Part shown: piece after piece, positions 49,076-63,441 of the stretch
Layout: each line of letters begins with the position of its first letter
How positions within the stretch are numbered: position 1 is the first letter of the stretch
Origin: an uncultured Chlorobiaceae bacterium
Lineage (GTDB): Bacteria; Bacteroidota; Chlorobiia; Chlorobiales; Chlorobiaceae
Direction: 5' to 3'
Assembly: GCA_903915955.1 (NCBI GenBank)
Contig: CAIWUU010000174.1
Span: 30,392 to 94,391 of the forward strand
Length of the DNA stretch: 64,000 nucleotides
Made by a program: the position numbers and the translations under genes
The notes under the pieces: model-generated
The model's input: the letters and a program-made list of their open reading frames with translations, nothing else
What the model was told of the DNA's origin: nothing
Database searches by the model: none

Positions 49076-49546
49076 ATGTTGATGCCTTTATCAGACGCTG
49101 ATTTTACATCAATTCTTGAAGACAAGTCTAAAAAAATTGTTGGTGATATTGAGTGGCTTGAAGATGAAGATCACTCTCCTGCCCTTGAGTTCCGAGCTGA
49201 AGTAAAATCAGAAAAAGGGTGGCCTCTTTTTATCAAAGGTAGCTATAATTCTTTGGCCATGGCGTTAACCTACGCCTTAATCTTGCAGACTGATGGCCGG
49301 ATTTATGGGTTGGACTTGGGAAAAGGACATATAAACCATAGTCCACAACGTCTCCAGGTCGGTGAAAAGCACAAGCACCGATGGACAGAACAGTATCGCG
49401 ACAAGAACGCCTATATTCCTGAAGATATCACTGCTCCGGTTTCCGACCCATTGGCAGTGTGGAGTCAGTTTTGCACAGAATCTAACATTGAGCATGATGG
49501 AGAGATGAAACCGTTACCATCAACGCAGCAGGAGCTCTTTTTATGA
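49076..49546 (+). CDS. Uncharacterised protein, partner of downstream DUF1828-like gene
   Basis: 156 aa ORF whose stop overlaps the next ATG (ATGA), operon-like. Confidence 0.7.
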   Translation: MLMPLSDADFTSILEDKSKKIVGDIEWLEDEDHSPALEFRAEVKSEKGWPLFIKGSYNSLAMALTYALILQTDGRIYGLDLGKGHINHSPQRLQVGEKHKHRWTEQYRDKNAYIPEDITAPVSDPLAVWSQFCTESNIEHDGEMKPLPSTQQELFL

Positions 49547-50328
49547 CCGATCTAACGATATGTGACAGCTTAAAATCCGGTATTAGTGAGTTATTTACCT
49601 GTACTGAACATGGAGATTTTCAGCGAATCCGGACTCCCTTTCTTTACCCGGATGGAGACAATATTGACCTTTTCTGCAAAACCGATGGGGATACAGTCAC
49701 GATAACTGATCTTGCGGAAACGGTGCGCTGGCTCCATGCACAGTCTGCATCATCTTCCAAGCGATCAACAAAGCAGCGACAGCTTATCGAAGACACTTGC
49801 CTTACTCACGGTGTTGAGCTCTATCGGGGGATGATTCTTGGACGTTGTCGCCCGGGCGATTCATTTGCCATGGTTGTTACACGGGTTGCTCAAGCAGCCG
49901 TCAGAGTTTCTGACCTCTGGTTTACCTTTAAAACACGGACGGTCGAGTCCATCACTGATGAGGTTGCAGATTGCCTCGCTGACAAAAAGCTGCCATTTAC
50001 CCGTTTTGAAAAACTTGCAGGAAGATCTGGCCGGGCATGGGCTATTGATTTTCACGTAAGATCTCCATTTCGCAGTTCCCTTGTTTCTGTCTTAAAAACA
50101 TCGAACCGTTCTTCAGCTCGACCAATTGTTGAGCATACCGTTGCTGCATGGTATGATCTGAATCATTTAGCCGCTGGGCCGGAAGGATTAAATTTTATAT
50201 CACTGTTTGACGACACATCTGATGTCTGGAGTGATGAAGACTTCAAGCTGGTAGAGCCATTGTCAATAATTTCGCGTTGGTCACGACCGGATGAGTTTGT
50301 CAATATTTTATCTGAGGTGGCGAGCTGA
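49543..50328 (+). CDS. DUF1828/DUF1829-like protein
   Basis: Segment DNIDLFCKTDGDTVTITDLAETVRWLHAQ typical of DUF1828; C-terminal half DUF1829-like. Confidence 0.7.
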   Translation: MTDLTICDSLKSGISELFTCTEHGDFQRIRTPFLYPDGDNIDLFCKTDGDTVTITDLAETVRWLHAQSASSSKRSTKQRQLIEDTCLTHGVELYRGMILGRCRPGDSFAMVVTRVAQAAVRVSDLWFTFKTRTVESITDEVADCLADKKLPFTRFEKLAGRSGRAWAIDFHVRSPFRSSLVSVLKTSNRSSARPIVEHTVAAWYDLNHLAAGPEGLNFISLFDDTSDVWSDEDFKLVEPLSIISRWSRPDEFVNILSEVAS

Positions 50329-50844: not shown

Positions 50845-51230
50845 GGGTAAGCATTTGAAATGTTTGAAAATACGCTACCGCACCAGTGCCTGCCGTTAAT
50901 CATGGATCCATACCCCGCAATATAGAACAATTCAGAATCAGTTTATCACCGAACAATTACTACAGAATCGCACATTAATCAACATTTTATCAGATAGAGC
51001 CAGAGAAAGGCATTTGTCACCCCATATTTTCCCCTCGTTCAAGCGCTCGAAAAGCGGCTGAAGATCAATTCACGATCGGCATTGCTTTTTGCCAGAGTCC
51101 TGCGACTATGCAGCCATTGCCCAAAAGCACTCCAAAGCACCGCTTTTACAGTTGAATACCTGAGAGCCAAGAGGCCAAGCCCAAAGGGTATGAAGCGCAA
51201 GTGGGAAGCCAAATGACCTTGATTGTTCAT

Positions 51231-52016
51231 TTACAGAAGATTTGGTGCTACGTTTTTCACCCATGATTCATGTAAATCCGCCCACTTTGCAGAATGGGAA
51301 CCGAGTTTTGCCGCCTGACGAGGATGAACAAGTGGCAAAAGTTGCATATCACGGCCGGCAATTCGAATATCATGGAGCAGATCATACTGGTCAAATGAAT
51401 CACCGTAGTCACTGAGTTTTGACTTCGATCCGAAATACTTTGTGAACCATTGCAAAGGCTGATCACCAAGTGTGATAAATATATCTGGAGACGCTTCAGA
51501 TACTTCTCCAGCAATTTCTGCCCTGCGCTGCTCATTCGCAAGTGTTGGGGGAACCGGTGGCCAATAATAGTGCGGTAAATTCAGTTTTTCTTTTTGAACA
51601 TCGTATTTGGAAGCCAGCGCTGCTTTCTGCCGGTCATTCATGCAACTATAAGGCACCAGATCGCAAAGCCAGACATCAGAGCGCTTCAGTTGTAATGGGT
51701 CAAGAAACATCTTGTCGAGAGCTTTACCTGAAGGGCCATTTAAATTTTTTCCAGGCGGTAAAAGTTTTCCGGCACCAGGAGTCACTGGAATCTTTGCAAT
51801 GATATCACACTCTCCTTCACCGCGCCAAAATATTTCAGGTTCTGAGGCAACTGCAAGAGCTCTCACGATTGGCCGACCATCTTCACCAACCCAGCGAGCA
51901 TGAACAGCACTGGCATAAACGCCAAGAATAAAAACCCGCTTTGGATTGCGATCTGATTGTGCCAACGACACAATCGGTTGTCCAAATGGAAACGTCTTGA
52001 TTTGTTGCATAATCAC
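51231..52016 (-). CDS. Uracil-DNA glycosylase superfamily-like protein
   Basis: RVFILGVYASAVHARW (motif-1-like), SPDIFITLGDQPLQWFTKYFG, LLPLVHPRQAAKLGSHSAKWADLHESW (motif-2-like HP). Confidence 0.5.
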   Translation of the reverse strand: MIMQQIKTFPFGQPIVSLAQSDRNPKRVFILGVYASAVHARWVGEDGRPIVRALAVASEPEIFWRGEGECDIIAKIPVTPGAGKLLPPGKNLNGPSGKALDKMFLDPLQLKRSDVWLCDLVPYSCMNDRQKAALASKYDVQKEKLNLPHYYWPPVPPTLANEQRRAEIAGEVSEASPDIFITLGDQPLQWFTKYFGSKSKLSDYGDSFDQYDLLHDIRIAGRDMQLLPLVHPRQAAKLGSHSAKWADLHESWVKNVAPNLL

Positions 52017-52055
52017 CTTATAGCTTTTATGTTATTGTACTGATATCTGTTATAA

Positions 52056-52874
52056 TCAATAGTTGCGACCGCCAATGCGACCAATGAGAATGTTTCGATC
52101 AGCCTCATCATTGCGAATGTGCATCTTTCGATGACAGTTTGGACACAATGCAACAACATTATCAATCGAGTCAACTCCACCGTGTGACAACCACTCTACA
52201 TGATGTGATTCCAAATAAGGCTCATTATTTACCGAGAGAAACGGAGCTTCCTCTTTGCATAGATCGCACACTCCATTAGCAAGTTTTTTTGCTGATGCTG
52301 CAACGTAACTATTTCTTATAAATGCAGTTCCGGTTAACGTCACCTTACGAGCGACAGCATCTGACATTGCTGCCCGTCTAAAGAGTTCACTTTCCGGGAG
52401 GGTAGATGCTCGCCTTTCATTTTCAGCAAGCCATGATACTAAAGTTTCTCTATCAGCATTCTCAGGAGCCTCTGACATGGCTTGTGGCACAGGCGTTTCA
52501 ATTGCGAGTCTTGTCGTCCCGGGTTTTCTGGCATAGTGATAGACAGCCTTTTTAACTATTTCAAAATCATCAACTCGCCAAAATGGTTCAGGATGTGTTT
52601 TTCCTCGATGATTTTCACCGGCACACTCTGCTCCACATAAATCTCGCATGAAAGAATACATCTCAATAGCTGTTCCCGCCAGAGCGATCTCATACTTATT
52701 AAGTCTCGTAAAAGGCTTAACGTATATTCTACCACTACCACCGGTAAAAGACATATTTTTTGTAATTTCAGATTGCTGCTCAAATTCGATGCGCACAAAA
52801 CCTGAATCAGACTCAGAATTTACTTCTGCCTCAAGAGCTTTCAGTTGCTTTTTCACTTGATCTACTTGCATCAA
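52056..52874 (-). CDS. HNH endonuclease
   Basis: CDLCKEEAPF...YLESHHVEWLSHGGVDSIDNVVALCPNCHRKMH, canonical HNH with two CxxC pairs. Confidence 0.88.
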   Translation of the reverse strand: MMQVDQVKKQLKALEAEVNSESDSGFVRIEFEQQSEITKNMSFTGGSGRIYVKPFTRLNKYEIALAGTAIEMYSFMRDLCGAECAGENHRGKTHPEPFWRVDDFEIVKKAVYHYARKPGTTRLAIETPVPQAMSEAPENADRETLVSWLAENERRASTLPESELFRRAAMSDAVARKVTLTGTAFIRNSYVAASAKKLANGVCDLCKEEAPFLSVNNEPYLESHHVEWLSHGGVDSIDNVVALCPNCHRKMHIRNDEADRNILIGRIGGRNY

Positions 52875-52941
52875 TATCCTTTGTCAAATATTTCTGAAGC
52901 GTAACAGAATCCTCTTCAAGCAGCACCGCGCATAATAATAT

Positions 52942-55900
52942 TCACTCTCCAGTCACCCATTTGGAGCCTGTGCGTTTCATCTCCTGCCACGCCTCGATAT
53001 GACGTTTCAATTCAGGATGCTTGCATCCATCAGCAATCAGCGCTTCCCGTGCAGCGGGATCAAACGGAATTGCCCTCGCGCCGAGGCATTCGTGCCAGAC
53101 TTTGGCAATCAATGACTCTGGTTTACGCTCCACTTGTTTTGTATGAAATTCAGCTATAAAAATAAATGGAACATTCGCTATAGCATCACACTGTGCCTCA
53201 ATTTTTTCCAGTAAAGGCTGTAACGGAAAAGTTTGTTCAATATCACTTGTATTACCTTCAAATCGATAGCGACCAGTAACAGCGTCTTTTTTATTCCAAA
53301 AAACACCATTCTGTTTGCGTAAATCAAGTTCATAAGATGATGATAAAAGAACATTAGATGCTTGAACCTCATGCCCCAAAGCAGAAAATCCACAACGAGG
53401 AAAGTTATTAAACCAAGTTGGCACCAATTGTTCCGCCATATTCATATCCTCATCATCGAAAATCTTAATAAGACATGACCAATTAGTGCAAGCTGTTTTA
53501 GTAAAATCTCCTAACTCTTTGTTAATAAATACAGAATCAGCAGAAATATTTTTTAGCTCGTGAATACTTATAACACCATAAACTAAGCATTTCTCCGTTT
53601 TGAGAAGTGAGTATAACCACGGATCTGCAGGAACGAATACACATGATGTTGCACAACATCTCAACAATCCTTCTGAGAAGAAAAAAGAATCCAAATTCGA
53701 TGTATATGGAAAAGAAGGTTCAATCAATACATCAGGTATTTCCAATTTTTGACTAAGTGGATGTCTTTTAATATTTGAAATTGCATCGCCACAAGATGTT
53801 GGCCCACAAACAAGCGCGTGTGCGATGAAAGAGAGTATAACGTCGCGAGTTAACTTATCAATGAACGGAAGTGTTTGCTGTGATAGTTCATACCGCTGTA
53901 TGGTAAGCGGCAATTGAGCTGTCTTATCTTTTATAGCCACACAAGGTACTTTTAATGAGATATCTTTTTCAGGCCATTCAAAAAGAGGTTTTTGCCATGA
54001 TAAACCACCTCTATCTCTTATTGACCGAAATAATAATGATTGTGGCTCAAGTATCACTATTCCATTGCATGAAAGTGGGGGGGCAAATCCAAATGTCCAA
54101 TATACCTCATCGAATCCAGCAAGAGGAAGCACAAACCAATCTGCAGCATCTTGACTCTCAATTGGAAGAACATATCGTTGATTTAACCACATAGTCTTTG
54201 AATTCCTAACAACATGCCTTGCTACTTTAGGGCAATTCCAGCAAAACCAATCTGTAACATCTGCATTAACAGAAGTTTCTTTACACCCAAGATTTATAGC
54301 AGTTTCACTGCTTATCTCCACTTCCACCGTTGTCCCTATGAGCAAGTTATCAACTCGCTGTATTTCGATAAGCTGACTGTCAGCCGACGCAACAATCATA
54401 TATCCTTCGCTCTTGTCAACAGTGGCATGTCGCGTCCACAAGCGAAATGAATGACCGAGAAGAAAAACGGCAAAAGCCCCAATTCCGAATCGTCCGGCAC
54501 GCGCCACTCGCGGCTTACCATCGTCATCAACAAACTCTTTTATCCACTCCTCACTGTTGCGGAACGATGCACCAGCACGCAAAAAGTAGTTCTTGATCGT
54601 ATCACTTGTCATACCAATGCCTCTATCCCGAACACGGAGAAACCATGTGCCGTTTTCCCGTTCGATAAACTCAATCAGGACATCACTATCTTGTTCAGGA
54701 AGATCAAGCGATTCGAGAGCAACGTCATGAGCTTTAGACCAAGCATCCAATTCGCACACTGCATCAACGGCATTTTGCATCAACTCACGCACTCCCACAC
54801 TCGGATTTTTTCCATACAGTGGTTCAACCAACAAGGTGAGCAGGTTCGGGTCTACACGAAATCCCGTCCGCTCCGGTACGTATGGCAGATTTTCACGGAA
54901 AGCAGTGTCATGCAAATTCGAGTAAACCCGCCGAATGGCAAGGTTAAGCAGATCAAGTCCAAGGTCGCTCCTTGTGCCATAAACTTCATCCAAAACGGCG
55001 GTTGAATGATCCATCTCGGCTTGCATATCTTTCAAAAGCTCCTGAAGCTGGAGATATAACGACAGGCAGATATCTGCGCTGACCGTAACCATCTTGCCAC
55101 GAGGATCAGTCGCCGGACCAATGTGCAGCACGGCAAGGTGCTTCTGCCATTCCTGCACTGAAAAAGGACTCTGGGGATTCCTGAGTTGGAGAAGAACAGC
55201 CGGAGCACGCTGTCGGTCAATTTGAAAGTAATCGGCAACGCGCAGCAGTGCCATGGGATAGAGTACTGCGGTGCCCATTGGTCTCGGCGTTCCGGGATAT
55301 TTCCAGTCCAGACAGGATTTGCACGGTCGAAGATTCATGCCGTGCGATCGTGCCGTGAGGCCGATCAAATCCGCCAAACGACTCAAATGGTGTCCTTTTT
55401 CTATACCCATTGCCGGAAACTGATGCTCACCAGAGCCAACTGGCAACCCTGGAAAACCATAGATTGCTATTTCATGAGCAAGCCGCGCATGGTGGCGACG
55501 GATAAACTCACCAATGATCAGGTAATGGTTACCCACGATTTCATCTGGAAACTGATCGAATTTCCAGACACGCGCCTCCTTCTCACCAATAATTTTAGCT
55601 AAATCACGTTCGCTGAATCGCTTTGCCTCACGAACATACTCCTCCCACAACTCAGGCCAAAGGCGATCGGCAGCATGGTCTTCGTGAGCATCTTTGAACC
55701 ACGAGAGTGGCTGAAATCGAGAATCAGGGCTGACAAGTTCCCTGAATCCATCCTCACGCAAGTGCATTGCAATGTCATGCAAAAGGGTAGCACCGATAAT
55801 CACTGCGGCATCGGCATCGCAGAGCAAACGAGGAATGGTGTCATTTTTACTCTTTTCCAAAACCGCCTTGGGCACCAGCTCTCCTTCGAATTGCAACACA

Positions 55901-56064
55901 CGGTTGACGTGATCAATACCGTGATCAGTGTAATCGGGAAAGAACGGGAGTTTATTGTCCGAAAGTATATTTCCAATCTGGTCAGCAAGTGCATGTACAG
56001 GTGCCTGAAGATCGCTCCCTTCCAGTAACAGCTTCAGCAATTTTGGAAATTCAATTTTAGCCAT
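52942..56064 (-). CDS. HD-domain / HSP90-like (GHKL) ATPase fusion protein, 1040 aa
   Basis: HD: DHGIDHVNRV and ATLLHDIAMH; GHKL N-box GVRELMQNAVDAV, G1 VRDRGIGMTSDTIKNYF, G2 RAGRFGIGAFAVFLLG. Confidence 0.85.
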   Translation of the reverse strand: MAKIEFPKLLKLLLEGSDLQAPVHALADQIGNILSDNKLPFFPDYTDHGIDHVNRVLQFEGELVPKAVLEKSKNDTIPRLLCDADAAVIIGATLLHDIAMHLREDGFRELVSPDSRFQPLSWFKDAHEDHAADRLWPELWEEYVREAKRFSERDLAKIIGEKEARVWKFDQFPDEIVGNHYLIIGEFIRRHHARLAHEIAIYGFPGLPVGSGEHQFPAMGIEKGHHLSRLADLIGLTARSHGMNLRPCKSCLDWKYPGTPRPMGTAVLYPMALLRVADYFQIDRQRAPAVLLQLRNPQSPFSVQEWQKHLAVLHIGPATDPRGKMVTVSADICLSLYLQLQELLKDMQAEMDHSTAVLDEVYGTRSDLGLDLLNLAIRRVYSNLHDTAFRENLPYVPERTGFRVDPNLLTLLVEPLYGKNPSVGVRELMQNAVDAVCELDAWSKAHDVALESLDLPEQDSDVLIEFIERENGTWFLRVRDRGIGMTSDTIKNYFLRAGASFRNSEEWIKEFVDDDGKPRVARAGRFGIGAFAVFLLGHSFRLWTRHATVDKSEGYMIVASADSQLIEIQRVDNLLIGTTVEVEISSETAINLGCKETSVNADVTDWFCWNCPKVARHVVRNSKTMWLNQRYVLPIESQDAADWFVLPLAGFDEVYWTFGFAPPLSCNGIVILEPQSLLFRSIRDRGGLSWQKPLFEWPEKDISLKVPCVAIKDKTAQLPLTIQRYELSQQTLPFIDKLTRDVILSFIAHALVCGPTSCGDAISNIKRHPLSQKLEIPDVLIEPSFPYTSNLDSFFFSEGLLRCCATSCVFVPADPWLYSLLKTEKCLVYGVISIHELKNISADSVFINKELGDFTKTACTNWSCLIKIFDDEDMNMAEQLVPTWFNNFPRCGFSALGHEVQASNVLLSSSYELDLRKQNGVFWNKKDAVTGRYRFEGNTSDIEQTFPLQPLLEKIEAQCDAIANVPFIFIAEFHTKQVERKPESLIAKVWHECLGARAIPFDPAAREALIADGCKHPELKRHIEAWQEMKRTGSKWVTGE

Positions 56065-56076
56065 GATTTTCTTGAG

Positions 56077-56166
56077 CTAACATTTTAAATCTGAAGGAAG
56101 CAAGCGCCAACCAGCGGCTTCAAGCAGCTTGTTGATTTTGATGCGGGCAACGGTCTTTTTAGCCAT
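56077..56166 (-). pseudogene. N-terminal relic of a type I restriction enzyme R (HsdR-like) gene
   Basis: MAKKTVARIKINKLLEAAGWRLLPSDLKC*; RIKINKLLEEAGWR-type start is typical of DEAD-family HsdR proteins. Confidence 0.55.
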
Positions 56167-60889: not shown

Positions 60890-61137
60890 CCGGTTGCTCC
60901 AATTGTGGTTGTCAAAACTTTCTGCGTGAAAGATAACATGTTTTTTGCCGGATTTAAGCCCACCATATTCGCTTATACCACAAAAATTACTTCATACACA
61001 TTCTTCCCTGAATTCTCTGATCTCCTCGTAGTTCCATCTTTTCCCAAACTCGTATAAATGCCTATATTCGCTTTCACGCATATTTCTCTTATTACTTGAA
61101 TGCCATTTACTTCGCTGCTTCCGCTAAACAATATCTC

Positions 61138-63441
61138 ATGAACGAAGTCACTCATAATAAAATTGTATCATTTATCTGGGGCATAGCCGACGACGTTCTC
61201 CGCGACCTCTTCAAACGAGGCAAATACCCCGACGTCATTCTCCCAATGTGTGTCATCCGCCGCATGGACGCCGTGCTTGAACCGACCAAACAAGCCGTGC
61301 TCGACATAAAAAAGCTGCTCGACGATGCAGGAATCACCGAACAGCGTGCAGCACTTTGTAATGCTTCAGGGCAGGCATTCTACAACACTTCGCAGTTTAC
61401 CCTGCGCGACCTCAAATCACGCGGCAGTCAGCAACATCTCCTTGCAGATATCGAAGACTACCTCAACGGCTACTCATCAAACGTCCAGGACATTCTCGAA
61501 AACTTCAAGTTCCGCAACCAGCTCTCCACACTCTCCAAAGCCGATGCCCTCGGCACACTCATCAACAAGTTTCTCGATCCTGAAATCGACCTCACCCCCG
61601 CAGGTATCGACAACCACGCAATGGGCACCGTCTTCGAGGAACTCGTCCGTAAATTCAATGAGGATAACAACGAAGAGGCCGGTGAACACTGGACGCCCCG
61701 CGATGCCGTGCGCCTGATGGCCAACTTTGTCTTTTTGCCGATTGAGGAGAAACTCAAGTCGGGCACCTACCTGCTCTGCGACTGCACCTGCGGTACCGGC
61801 GGGATGCTCACCGTTGCCGAAGAGACCGTTTTATCCATAGCCGCAAAGTATCAGCAGGATATACAATGCCTCCTTTACGGGCAGGAAATCAACCCTGAAA
61901 CTTACGCCATCTGCAAGGCCGACATGCTGCTCAAAGGGGAGGGCGAAAACGCCGACCACATCGTCGGCGGCGCAGAATGGTCAACCCTCTCGCACGATGC
62001 CTTTCCCTCCCGTGTTTTCGACTTCATGCTCTCCAATCCCCCCTACGGCAAGAGCTGGAAAAAAGATCTCGAAGCGATGGGCGGCAAAGAGGGGATGCGC
62101 GACCCCCGCTTCAGGGTGATGCACCAGGGCGAAGAGCTCTCACTCGTCACCCGCTCCAGCGACGGGCAGTTGCTCTTTTTAGCCAATCTGGCCTCCAAAA
62201 TGAACCAGAGCTCCGCACTCGGCAGCCGCATCGCCGAAGTCCATAACGGCAGTTCGCTCTTTACTGGCGATGCCGGACAGGGCGAAAGCAACATCCGCCG
62301 CTGGCTCATCGAAAATGACTGGGTTGAAGCCATTGTTGCCCTCCCGCTCAACCTTTTTTACAACACAGGTATTGCCACCTACATATGGGTGCTCACCAAT
62401 CGCAAACCTGCACATCGCCAAGGATATCTTCAACTTATCGACGCTACCCAGTGGTTCAAACCGCTCCGCAAAAACCTCGGCAAAAAGAACTGTGAACTCT
62501 CTCAGGAAGATATTGACCGAATCATCCACACTTTTCTTGATTTCAAAGAGACACCCGAATCAAGAATTTTTCTCAATGAGGAGTTTGGCTACTGGAAAGT
62601 AACCGTTGAGCGTCCGCTCCGGCTCCACAGCCAGCTCTCCATCAAAGCCATAGAGAGCCTGCGCTTTGCCTCTGGTGATGAAGAGATTCGCACCTCGCTC
62701 TACGAAGAGTTTGGCGATGACCTCTTCACCAGCTTTCGCATCATTGCTCCAGCGATCGAAAAACGCCTTGCCGAGTGGGGAAGCGATGAAGAGGAGAGTG
62801 ACGATGAAGAGGGTGGCAGCAAAAAAGGGCTCCCCGAAAAAAAGAAAAAGAAGCTGCTCGACCCGAAGTGCTGGGAACGCGACGGCAGGCTTGTTGAATC
62901 CGCTTATGCCCTGCGTACCATACTCGGTGAACAGCTTTTCGAAGACCATAATATCTTCCGCCAAAACGTCAGCGCAGCACTTATGCAGGGAAGTATCAAG
63001 CTGCCCGCAGCCGACCTGAATAAAATACTGAAAGCAGTAAGCTGGAGGGTAGAAACCGCTTCCCCCGTCATTGCCAAAATGCACAAGCCCGGCAAGAACG
63101 AAGCTGAACCGCTCTACGGTCTTTACGATGCTGTGACCCCAACAGGAAAGCCCGTTATTGTCGAATACGAACCCGACCCCGATTTGCGCGACACTGAGCA
63201 GGTGCCACTTCTCGAAGAGGGAGGTATTGAAGCCTTCATCCGTCGCGAAGTGCTGCCCTATACCCCTGACGCATGGATAAAAGAGAGTGCCACCAAAATC
63301 GGCTACGAAGTCAGCTTCACCCGCCACTTCTACAAACCCCAGCCGCTCCGCACACTTGAAGAGATCACGGCTGACATCTTTGCTGTTGAGCAGGAGGCCG
63401 AAGGGCTGCTCGACGGCCTGCTGAAGGGAGGGGGGCGATGA
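61138..63441 (+). CDS. hsdM: Type I restriction-modification system DNA methyltransferase subunit M (start adjusted)
   Basis: GEHWTPRDAVRLMANFVF, DCTCGTGGML, FDFMLSNPPYGKSWKKD (NPPY). Confidence 0.94.
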   Translation: MNEVTHNKIVSFIWGIADDVLRDLFKRGKYPDVILPMCVIRRMDAVLEPTKQAVLDIKKLLDDAGITEQRAALCNASGQAFYNTSQFTLRDLKSRGSQQHLLADIEDYLNGYSSNVQDILENFKFRNQLSTLSKADALGTLINKFLDPEIDLTPAGIDNHAMGTVFEELVRKFNEDNNEEAGEHWTPRDAVRLMANFVFLPIEEKLKSGTYLLCDCTCGTGGMLTVAEETVLSIAAKYQQDIQCLLYGQEINPETYAICKADMLLKGEGENADHIVGGAEWSTLSHDAFPSRVFDFMLSNPPYGKSWKKDLEAMGGKEGMRDPRFRVMHQGEELSLVTRSSDGQLLFLANLASKMNQSSALGSRIAEVHNGSSLFTGDAGQGESNIRRWLIENDWVEAIVALPLNLFYNTGIATYIWVLTNRKPAHRQGYLQLIDATQWFKPLRKNLGKKNCELSQEDIDRIIHTFLDFKETPESRIFLNEEFGYWKVTVERPLRLHSQLSIKAIESLRFASGDEEIRTSLYEEFGDDLFTSFRIIAPAIEKRLAEWGSDEEESDDEEGGSKKGLPEKKKKKLLDPKCWERDGRLVESAYALRTILGEQLFEDHNIFRQNVSAALMQGSIKLPAADLNKILKAVSWRVETASPVIAKMHKPGKNEAEPLYGLYDAVTPTGKPVIVEYEPDPDLRDTEQVPLLEEGGIEAFIRREVLPYTPDAWIKESATKIGYEVSFTRHFYKPQPLRTLEEITADIFAVEQEAEGLLDGLLKGGGR

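Follow-up and report, generated by a model that had tools for sequence, protein, structure and literature searches.

Closest described systems

GHKL ATPases are emerging as switches in bacterial immunity, and the ligands that they sense are mostly unknown. In type I-D Shedu a single protein (VcSduA) combines a GHKL ATPase with a DUF4263 nuclease; substitutions in the ATPase (E27A) and in the nuclease (K557A) each abolish defence, both activities being needed, a clamp-like middle domain has been modelled, and the ATPase is proposed to control the nuclease (PMC12137116). Here we describe a 1040-residue protein encoded in a 64,000-nt stretch of a contig from an uncultured Chlorobiaceae bacterium (hereafter the window; features in Table 1), which resembles VcSduA (PMC12137116) in coupling, within a single chain, a catalytic domain to a GHKL ATPase and a putative clamp-like middle region, and differs from it in that the catalytic domain is an N-terminal HD domain instead of a C-terminal PD-(D/E)xK nuclease. 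Since a Pfam search of the fusion protein gave no SduA_C/DUF4263 match, we do not consider it a member of Shedu; VcSduA is the closest tested analogue, and by analogy the fusion protein may work in a similar manner.

A further point of comparison is the DRT class UG24 (PADLOC RT_UG24), of which model residues ~698-908 match the HD domain of one homologue (L026, 2e-22) and, in part, that of another (L028, 7e-8); RT_UG24 differs in being a reverse transcriptase fusion, and the GHKL domain is not matched. These matches suggest that the HD-CE domain may serve at least two defence architectures. With HSP90, HtpG and TRAP1 the fusion protein shares the N-terminal ATPase motifs, the fold and apparently part of the middle region, and it differs from them by its N-terminal HD domain, its hypervariable middle/C-terminal region and its sporadic, mobile occurrence. 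At its N-terminus it belongs fully to Pfam HD-CE, a family whose strong members examined all carry GHKL as well; our literature search on HD-CE found no paper naming or testing the domain. The passages on HD and HSP90 proteins in comparative papers of 2008, 2013 and 2024 do not describe the fusion, PADLOC 2.0.0 matched 0 families to the fusion protein, and relatives, where checked, bear no annotation beyond 'ATP-binding protein', 'HD domain-containing protein' or 'hypothetical protein'. The HATPase-SpoT fusions of Orientia are described in the literature as merged fragments of RAGE genes.

Table 1. Features of the fusion gene, its surroundings and related loci (window positions unless a locus is named).
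Feature	Position	Strand	Evidence
HD-CE / HSP90-like ATPase fusion gene, 1040 aa	52942..56064	-	ORF list, Pfam, NCBIfam
HD-CE domain, residues 42-351, ligands H48, H52, H96-D97, H192, H241, D278	55012..55941	-	PF24391, alignment, helical AF2 model
HSP90-type Bergerat ATPase domain, residues 401-589	54298..54864	-	Pfam, NCBIfam, alignment, PDB profile, Foldseek
GC-poor hypervariable cassette (residues ~584-974), for which a recognition role of an HSP90 middle/C-like region is proposed	53143..54315	-	breakpoints, dS/dN, blastn, GC
Conserved island in cassette, residues 721-760, incl. LPLTIQR(Y), putative HSP90 catalytic-Arg loop	53785..53904	-	identity 62-78%
Conserved C-terminal helical tail, residues 975-1040	52945..53142	-	identity 62-91%; also present where relatives lack HNH/UDG
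HNH endonuclease gene, 67 nt downstream of fusion gene, optional partner	52056..52874	-	PF01844 4e-9
UDG-superfamily protein gene, 39 nt beyond HNH gene, optional partner	51231..52016	-	PF03167 24.5 bits vs cut-off 24.3, marginal
Conserved 5' leader (85 bp); in L004, L021 and L022 it marks the border of the exchanged unit	56065..56149	-	blastn
35-bp element downstream of UDG gene, conserved 100% in L004, 97% in L021	51109..51143	-	blastn
Candidate defence pair PDC-M24A/B (DUF6978 + DUF1828), intact, separate system	49076..50328	+	PADLOC 1.9e-68, 8.9e-102
HD domains matching C-terminal part of RT_UG24	L026:8298-10568; L028:7116-10538		

Domain architecture of the fusion protein

The gene has exactly the limits that an earlier note on this DNA had assigned to a single-chain fusion of an HD hydrolase and an HSP90-like ATPase, with the strand corrected here to minus (the plus strand contains 36 stops across the interval). 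The motifs quoted in that note were recovered at residues 47-56 (DHGIDHVNRV) and 92-101 (ATLLHDIAMH) on the HD side and at residues 425-436 (VRELMQNAVDAV), 480-486 (DRGIGMT) and 524-537 (GRFGIGAFAVFLLG) on the ATPase side, and, going by profile scores above the cut-offs, they are beyond chance: Pfam HD-CE (PF24391) matches residues 42-351 with 126.5 bits (cut-off 27; 2e-36), and Pfam HATPase_c_3 matches residues 424-558 with 27.9 bits (cut-off 25). Residues 401-589 are also hit by the NCBIfam models for HSP90/HtpG, at 1e-15. These matches bear out the joining of HD and GHKL in one chain. The HD domain possesses the H...HD...D metal ligands of HD-superfamily metallo-phosphohydrolases (H52, H96-D97 and D278) in addition to H48, H192 and H241, and the ATPase contains all of the N, G1, G2 and G3 Bergerat-fold motifs of GHKL/HSP90 ATPases (N-box E427/N431/D434; G1 D480-G482-G484; G2 G524-G529; GT 577-578). 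No loss of catalytic residues was seen: the 16 aligned members (16/16) are invariant for H48, H52, H96, D97, H192, H241, D278, R275 and R286 in the HD domain and for E427, N431, D434, D480, G482, G484, M485, F526, G527, G529 and G577 in the ATPase, and a second alignment (17 sequences, prophage members included) retains nearly all catalytic residues of both domains.

The AlphaFold2 (AF2) model, built on the 17-sequence alignment and confident in the HD and GHKL regions, presents an HSP90 N-domain. Foldseek aligned ~410 columns of it to TRAP1 and HtpG (E 2.6e-9), and a profile search of the PDB matched the HSP90 N-domain together with part of the middle region (E 1e-35). Modelled alone, the HD domain was all-helical (pTM 0.81); Foldseek of this model gave no significant match, the best ones being to phosphodiesterases (E at least 0.3), and cyclic-nucleotide phosphodiesterases recur among the non-significant matches of the domain, both in sequence and in fold. 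In spite of its HSP90 N-domain the fusion protein is not HtpG, as it falls below the curated NCBIfam equivalog cut-off (52.3 vs 371 bits); a separate HtpG is encoded elsewhere in the source genome (G000:C75). Within the viral library BFVD, the best structural matches to the HSP90-like part of the AF2 model were mostly phage RIIA proteins, hinting at a common ancestry of phage exclusion and host defence ATPases.

A hypervariable cassette between conserved flanks

The C-terminal ~400 residues, in which the earlier note had seen no recognisable motif, are not featureless: a conserved island (residues 721-760) and the strongly conserved last 66 residues (975-1040) are set off by hypervariable sequence. 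When the window was compared by blastn to same-genus relatives, positions 54314-56149 aligned at 88% and positions 51226-53142 at 87%, with nothing between. Codon analysis against G048 gave 90% identity and dS 0.42-0.44 for the HD and GHKL regions, 37-51% identity and dS 1.3-2.2 for residues 584-974, and 91% identity and dS 0.50 for residues 975-1040; the same conserved-variable-conserved pattern was obtained against G185. A two-breakpoint likelihood scan of six pairs placed the limits at 571-981, 582-980, 587-975, 593-999, 592-1007 and 583-982 (in the numbering of each pair's first protein), with 2dlnL of 81-249 (200 permutations of each pair never gave more than 38), and in these pairs the flanks are 68-91% identical vs 39-53% in the block between breakpoints ~582 and ~980. 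The breakpoint scan of MetH, used as control, revealed no comparable block (its less conserved part is still 80-89% identical), and in HtpG of the same species the middle domain is as conserved as the N-domain. Furthermore, the GC content of the cassette lies below that of the N-terminal flank in 7/7 members, by 6-19 points (0.37 vs 0.49 in the fusion gene of the window), and in wider-family pairs the N-half is 40-46% identical vs 21-28% for the C-half.

We read this pattern as an apparent swapping of old, divergent alleles between conserved flanks, and the block has the look of a specificity cassette that is passed around. The housekeeping gene metH has a dS of 1.06 between the window and G048, and in close pairs the synonymous divergence of the cassette exceeds that of MetH; since the dS of the UDG gene is 0.25 (HNH 0.26-0.31) and that of the cassette 1.3-2.2, we conclude that the operon passed between the species after their split, and that the cassette exceeds the species in divergence. 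The dN/dS below 1 in the cassette points to old allele divergence, with positive selection not demonstrated, and decay is argued against by the islands inside the block (721-760, partly 801-840), which stay conserved. The novelty lies in the C-terminal cassette, with its sharp boundaries and its signs of exchange: the HD and GHKL fusion itself is a named and widespread domain family, the Pfam HD-CE entry names the domain only, and the variable cassette was not found described anywhere we searched. Of the two roles suggested in the earlier note for the C-terminal region, effector or recognition, the latter has gained evidence from the exchanged hypervariable block. The target-recognition domains of type I HsdS likewise form a variable recognition block between conserved segments that is altered by recombination; the likeness is one of analogy, with no sequence relation claimed, and the block of the fusion protein differs in being seated in an HSP90-like region.

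Region 598-964 is poorly modelled by AF2 (mean pLDDT 65.9), and that the cassette is an HSP90-like middle domain is proposed on the basis of weak profile and fold evidence and a low-confidence C-terminal model. The LPLTIQR island is conserved in close members; its likeness to the HSP90 LxLNxSRE motif was not significant in a pairwise shuffle test against HtpG, and a pairwise proof of the catalytic-Arg loop was dropped on that account. Two candidate roles of the C-terminal tail were also rejected. As a shared module (it stands alone in G201 and G098) it was found, in a search of the 297 genomes of the phylum, only within the fusion family or as short leftovers, and we thus treat these lone tails as gene remnants; as a docking site for HNH/UDG it is ruled out by its retention where both genes are absent.

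Distribution and mobility

Close full-length homologues were found in Chlorobiaceae and in one Verrucomicrobiaceae genome, and the full-length layout is kept across Chlorobiaceae, Verrucomicrobia and prophage contigs at 53-73% identity (53% for the homologue on the prophage-like contig L104). The fusion, called unusual in the earlier note, turned out to be the rule: an HD-CE profile search of the 297 genomes gave 15 strong matches, all 15 of which also carry GHKL (116/297 genomes were HD-CE-positive and only the strong matches were counted, the weak ones being left out because most lie in ~520-aa ORFs that appear to be RNase Y). Scans of IMG/VR recovered 14 homologues with both domains (L104-L115, L117, L123), most of them lone genes in prophage-like contigs, whose neighbours include integrases (L105, L113, L117), serine recombinases (L107), terminase and head-protease genes (L110) and replication initiators (L108, L123). 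The protein of the window gave no tblastn matches to plasmids and phages, and divergent family members used as queries against the same sets gave matches on plasmids; copies with both domains reside on plasmids of Zymomonas, Pseudoalteromonas and Lachnospira, and an Aliarcobacter plasmid copy (L138:3890-6711) consists of two adjacent ORFs split within the ATPase region, which may reflect either a frameshift or a true two-subunit form. As the strong HD-CE matches all carry both domains and copies with both occur in prophage-like contigs and on plasmids, we regard the HD-HSP90 fusion as the standard architecture of a widespread family (15/297 genomes of the phylum, plasmids from several phyla, and prophages).

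At the same time the gene is sporadic, with matches in 9/86 family genomes (the source genome included), several of which are fragments. In one Chlorobiaceae MAG a transposase ORF (L004:6997-8283, minus strand) breaks the fusion gene at about residue 880-900, intact copies being present in relatives. Other Chlorobiaceae contain C-terminal tails standing alone (80-93% identical) and, in one case, a lone N-terminal piece of ~198 aa (L009, L010 (L031, L032), L126 (L130:7307-8005)); these pieces would be remnants and suggest frequent gene loss.

Defence neighbourhood

In a plain list of neighbours, uncorrected for background frequency, fusion genes often lie close to defence genes. The window contains, besides the PDC-M24A/B pair, a type I RM methyltransferase (61096-63441, PADLOC), and the neighbours of relatives comprise Gabija, AbiEi/ii and AriA-like genes, HEC-02 and a Lamassu-B-like gene, and TIR-NLR and a PD-T4-6-like kinase; no defence neighbours were seen for L070, L073 and the tested gene of L026. 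PDC-M28A/B/C, made up of a MinD/ParA-like ATPase and two proteins without Pfam matches, lies directly upstream of the fusion gene in two genomes (L021:4478-7628, L022:4453-7618) and is absent from the window; a literature search on PDC-M28 found no relevant paper. The candidate role in conflict systems mentioned in the earlier note is supported by neighbourhood and mobility.

Proposed function and alternative explanations

Lying among phage-defence genes and inside prophages, the fusion gene is probably a single-protein immune system. We propose, at about even chances, that it encodes a single-chain receptor-effector directed against phages (or mobile elements); the steps that we infer are the sensing of a ligand, the dimer clamp, the switching on of HD and the effect on phages. 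An invader-derived ligand would be bound by the hypervariable C-terminal half, for which an HSP90-like middle region would provide the scaffold and the conserved helical tail the anchor. The HSP90-like domain could then take up ATP and shut as a dimer clamp, and this would activate the N-terminal HD metallo-phosphohydrolase, which would cleave a phosphoester (in nucleic acid or nucleotide) and so stop phage replication or abort the infection. Specificity would evolve as alleles trade C-terminal cassettes within flanks that stay conserved, much like the type I HsdS target-recognition domains, and the HNH and UDG-fold genes would represent accessory nucleases appended in some Chlorobiaceae. This reading is supported by the architecture, the intact catalytic residues, the hypervariable block, the mobility, the mostly lone occurrence of the gene and its defence neighbours. 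Taken more broadly, and only tentatively, the homologues may constitute a family of single-protein immune receptors, spread by prophages and plasmids across several phyla. Each would recognise invader ligands through an HSP90-like client-binding region that recombination exchanges as a specificity cassette, and would license an HD effector via the ATP clamp. The near-identical flanks and very different cassettes of close relatives amount to a natural experiment on recognition; if the reading is true, an HSP90-like client-binding region would have been turned into a pathogen receptor.

The downstream genes, which the earlier note does not mention, raise the question of whether the unit is instead a multi-protein restriction system, with the HD-HSP90 protein as ATP-driven sensor and the HNH and UDG-fold proteins as executing nucleases on modified or uracil-bearing phage DNA. 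The three genes follow one another in the same order and at short distances in the window, L004 and G048 (this order is also seen in L021), the low dS of the UDG and HNH genes between the window and G048 suggests that the unit moved together recently, and the HNH half of the HNH protein resembles type IV restriction enzymes (PADLOC mREase_IV, 3e-19). We nevertheless consider this explanation unlikely: HNH and UDG are missing beside 5/8 closest relatives (G185, G020, G298, L003, L104), which keep the C-terminal tail, their homologues occur without the fusion gene in other defence islands (HNH beside CRISPR I-E, UDG near type III RM or SIR2-pAgo), and the HD site is intact. We treat both genes as optional partners. 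Compatible with the receptor-effector reading is the possibility, on balance a doubtful one, that the HD domain is not a nuclease and, as a nucleotidase or cyclic-nucleotide phosphodiesterase, drains the pool of nucleotides or of a signal; the H...HD...H...H...D ligand set and the recurrent, non-significant phosphodiesterase matches by sequence and fold speak for it, and nothing decisive was found against it.

The lone position of many homologues in prophage-like contigs would also suit a factor for superinfection exclusion or prophage maintenance that protects or works for the element carrying it, as opposed to an immune receptor of the bacterium. Phage RIIA proteins, the best viral structural matches of the model, act in phage-phage exclusion; however, RIIA is not known to have an HD domain, chromosomal copies of the fusion gene sit among bacterial defence genes, and defence systems commonly have prophage copies, all of which makes a service to the prophage alone quite improbable. 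Least probable is a chaperone of HSP90 type, specialised for a cellular (stress) role, in which the HD domain would be regulatory and the variable half would track different clients: the strong similarity to the HSP90 N-domain is set against a score far below the HtpG cut-off (52 vs 371 bits), the genome's own HtpG, the sporadic (9/86) and mobile occurrence of the gene, and the lack of a variable block in HtpG between the same species.

Optional partners and the edge of the exchanged unit

The UDG-fold protein forms a family of its own; the members seen in other islands and on Variovorax plasmids (L096, L097, L098, L099, L103) share 47-61% identity and are often near RM or pAgo genes. Between close relatives the N-terminal half of the HNH protein (52530-52874, minus strand) looks more divergent than the C-terminal half, and it may perhaps also be a specificity region. 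Just upstream of the fusion gene lies a 29-codon ORF (MAKKTVARIKINKLLEAAGWRLLPSDLKC, 56077-56166, minus strand), which we take to resemble the first residues of the R subunit in type I restriction enzymes, and the exchanged unit starts inside this ORF.
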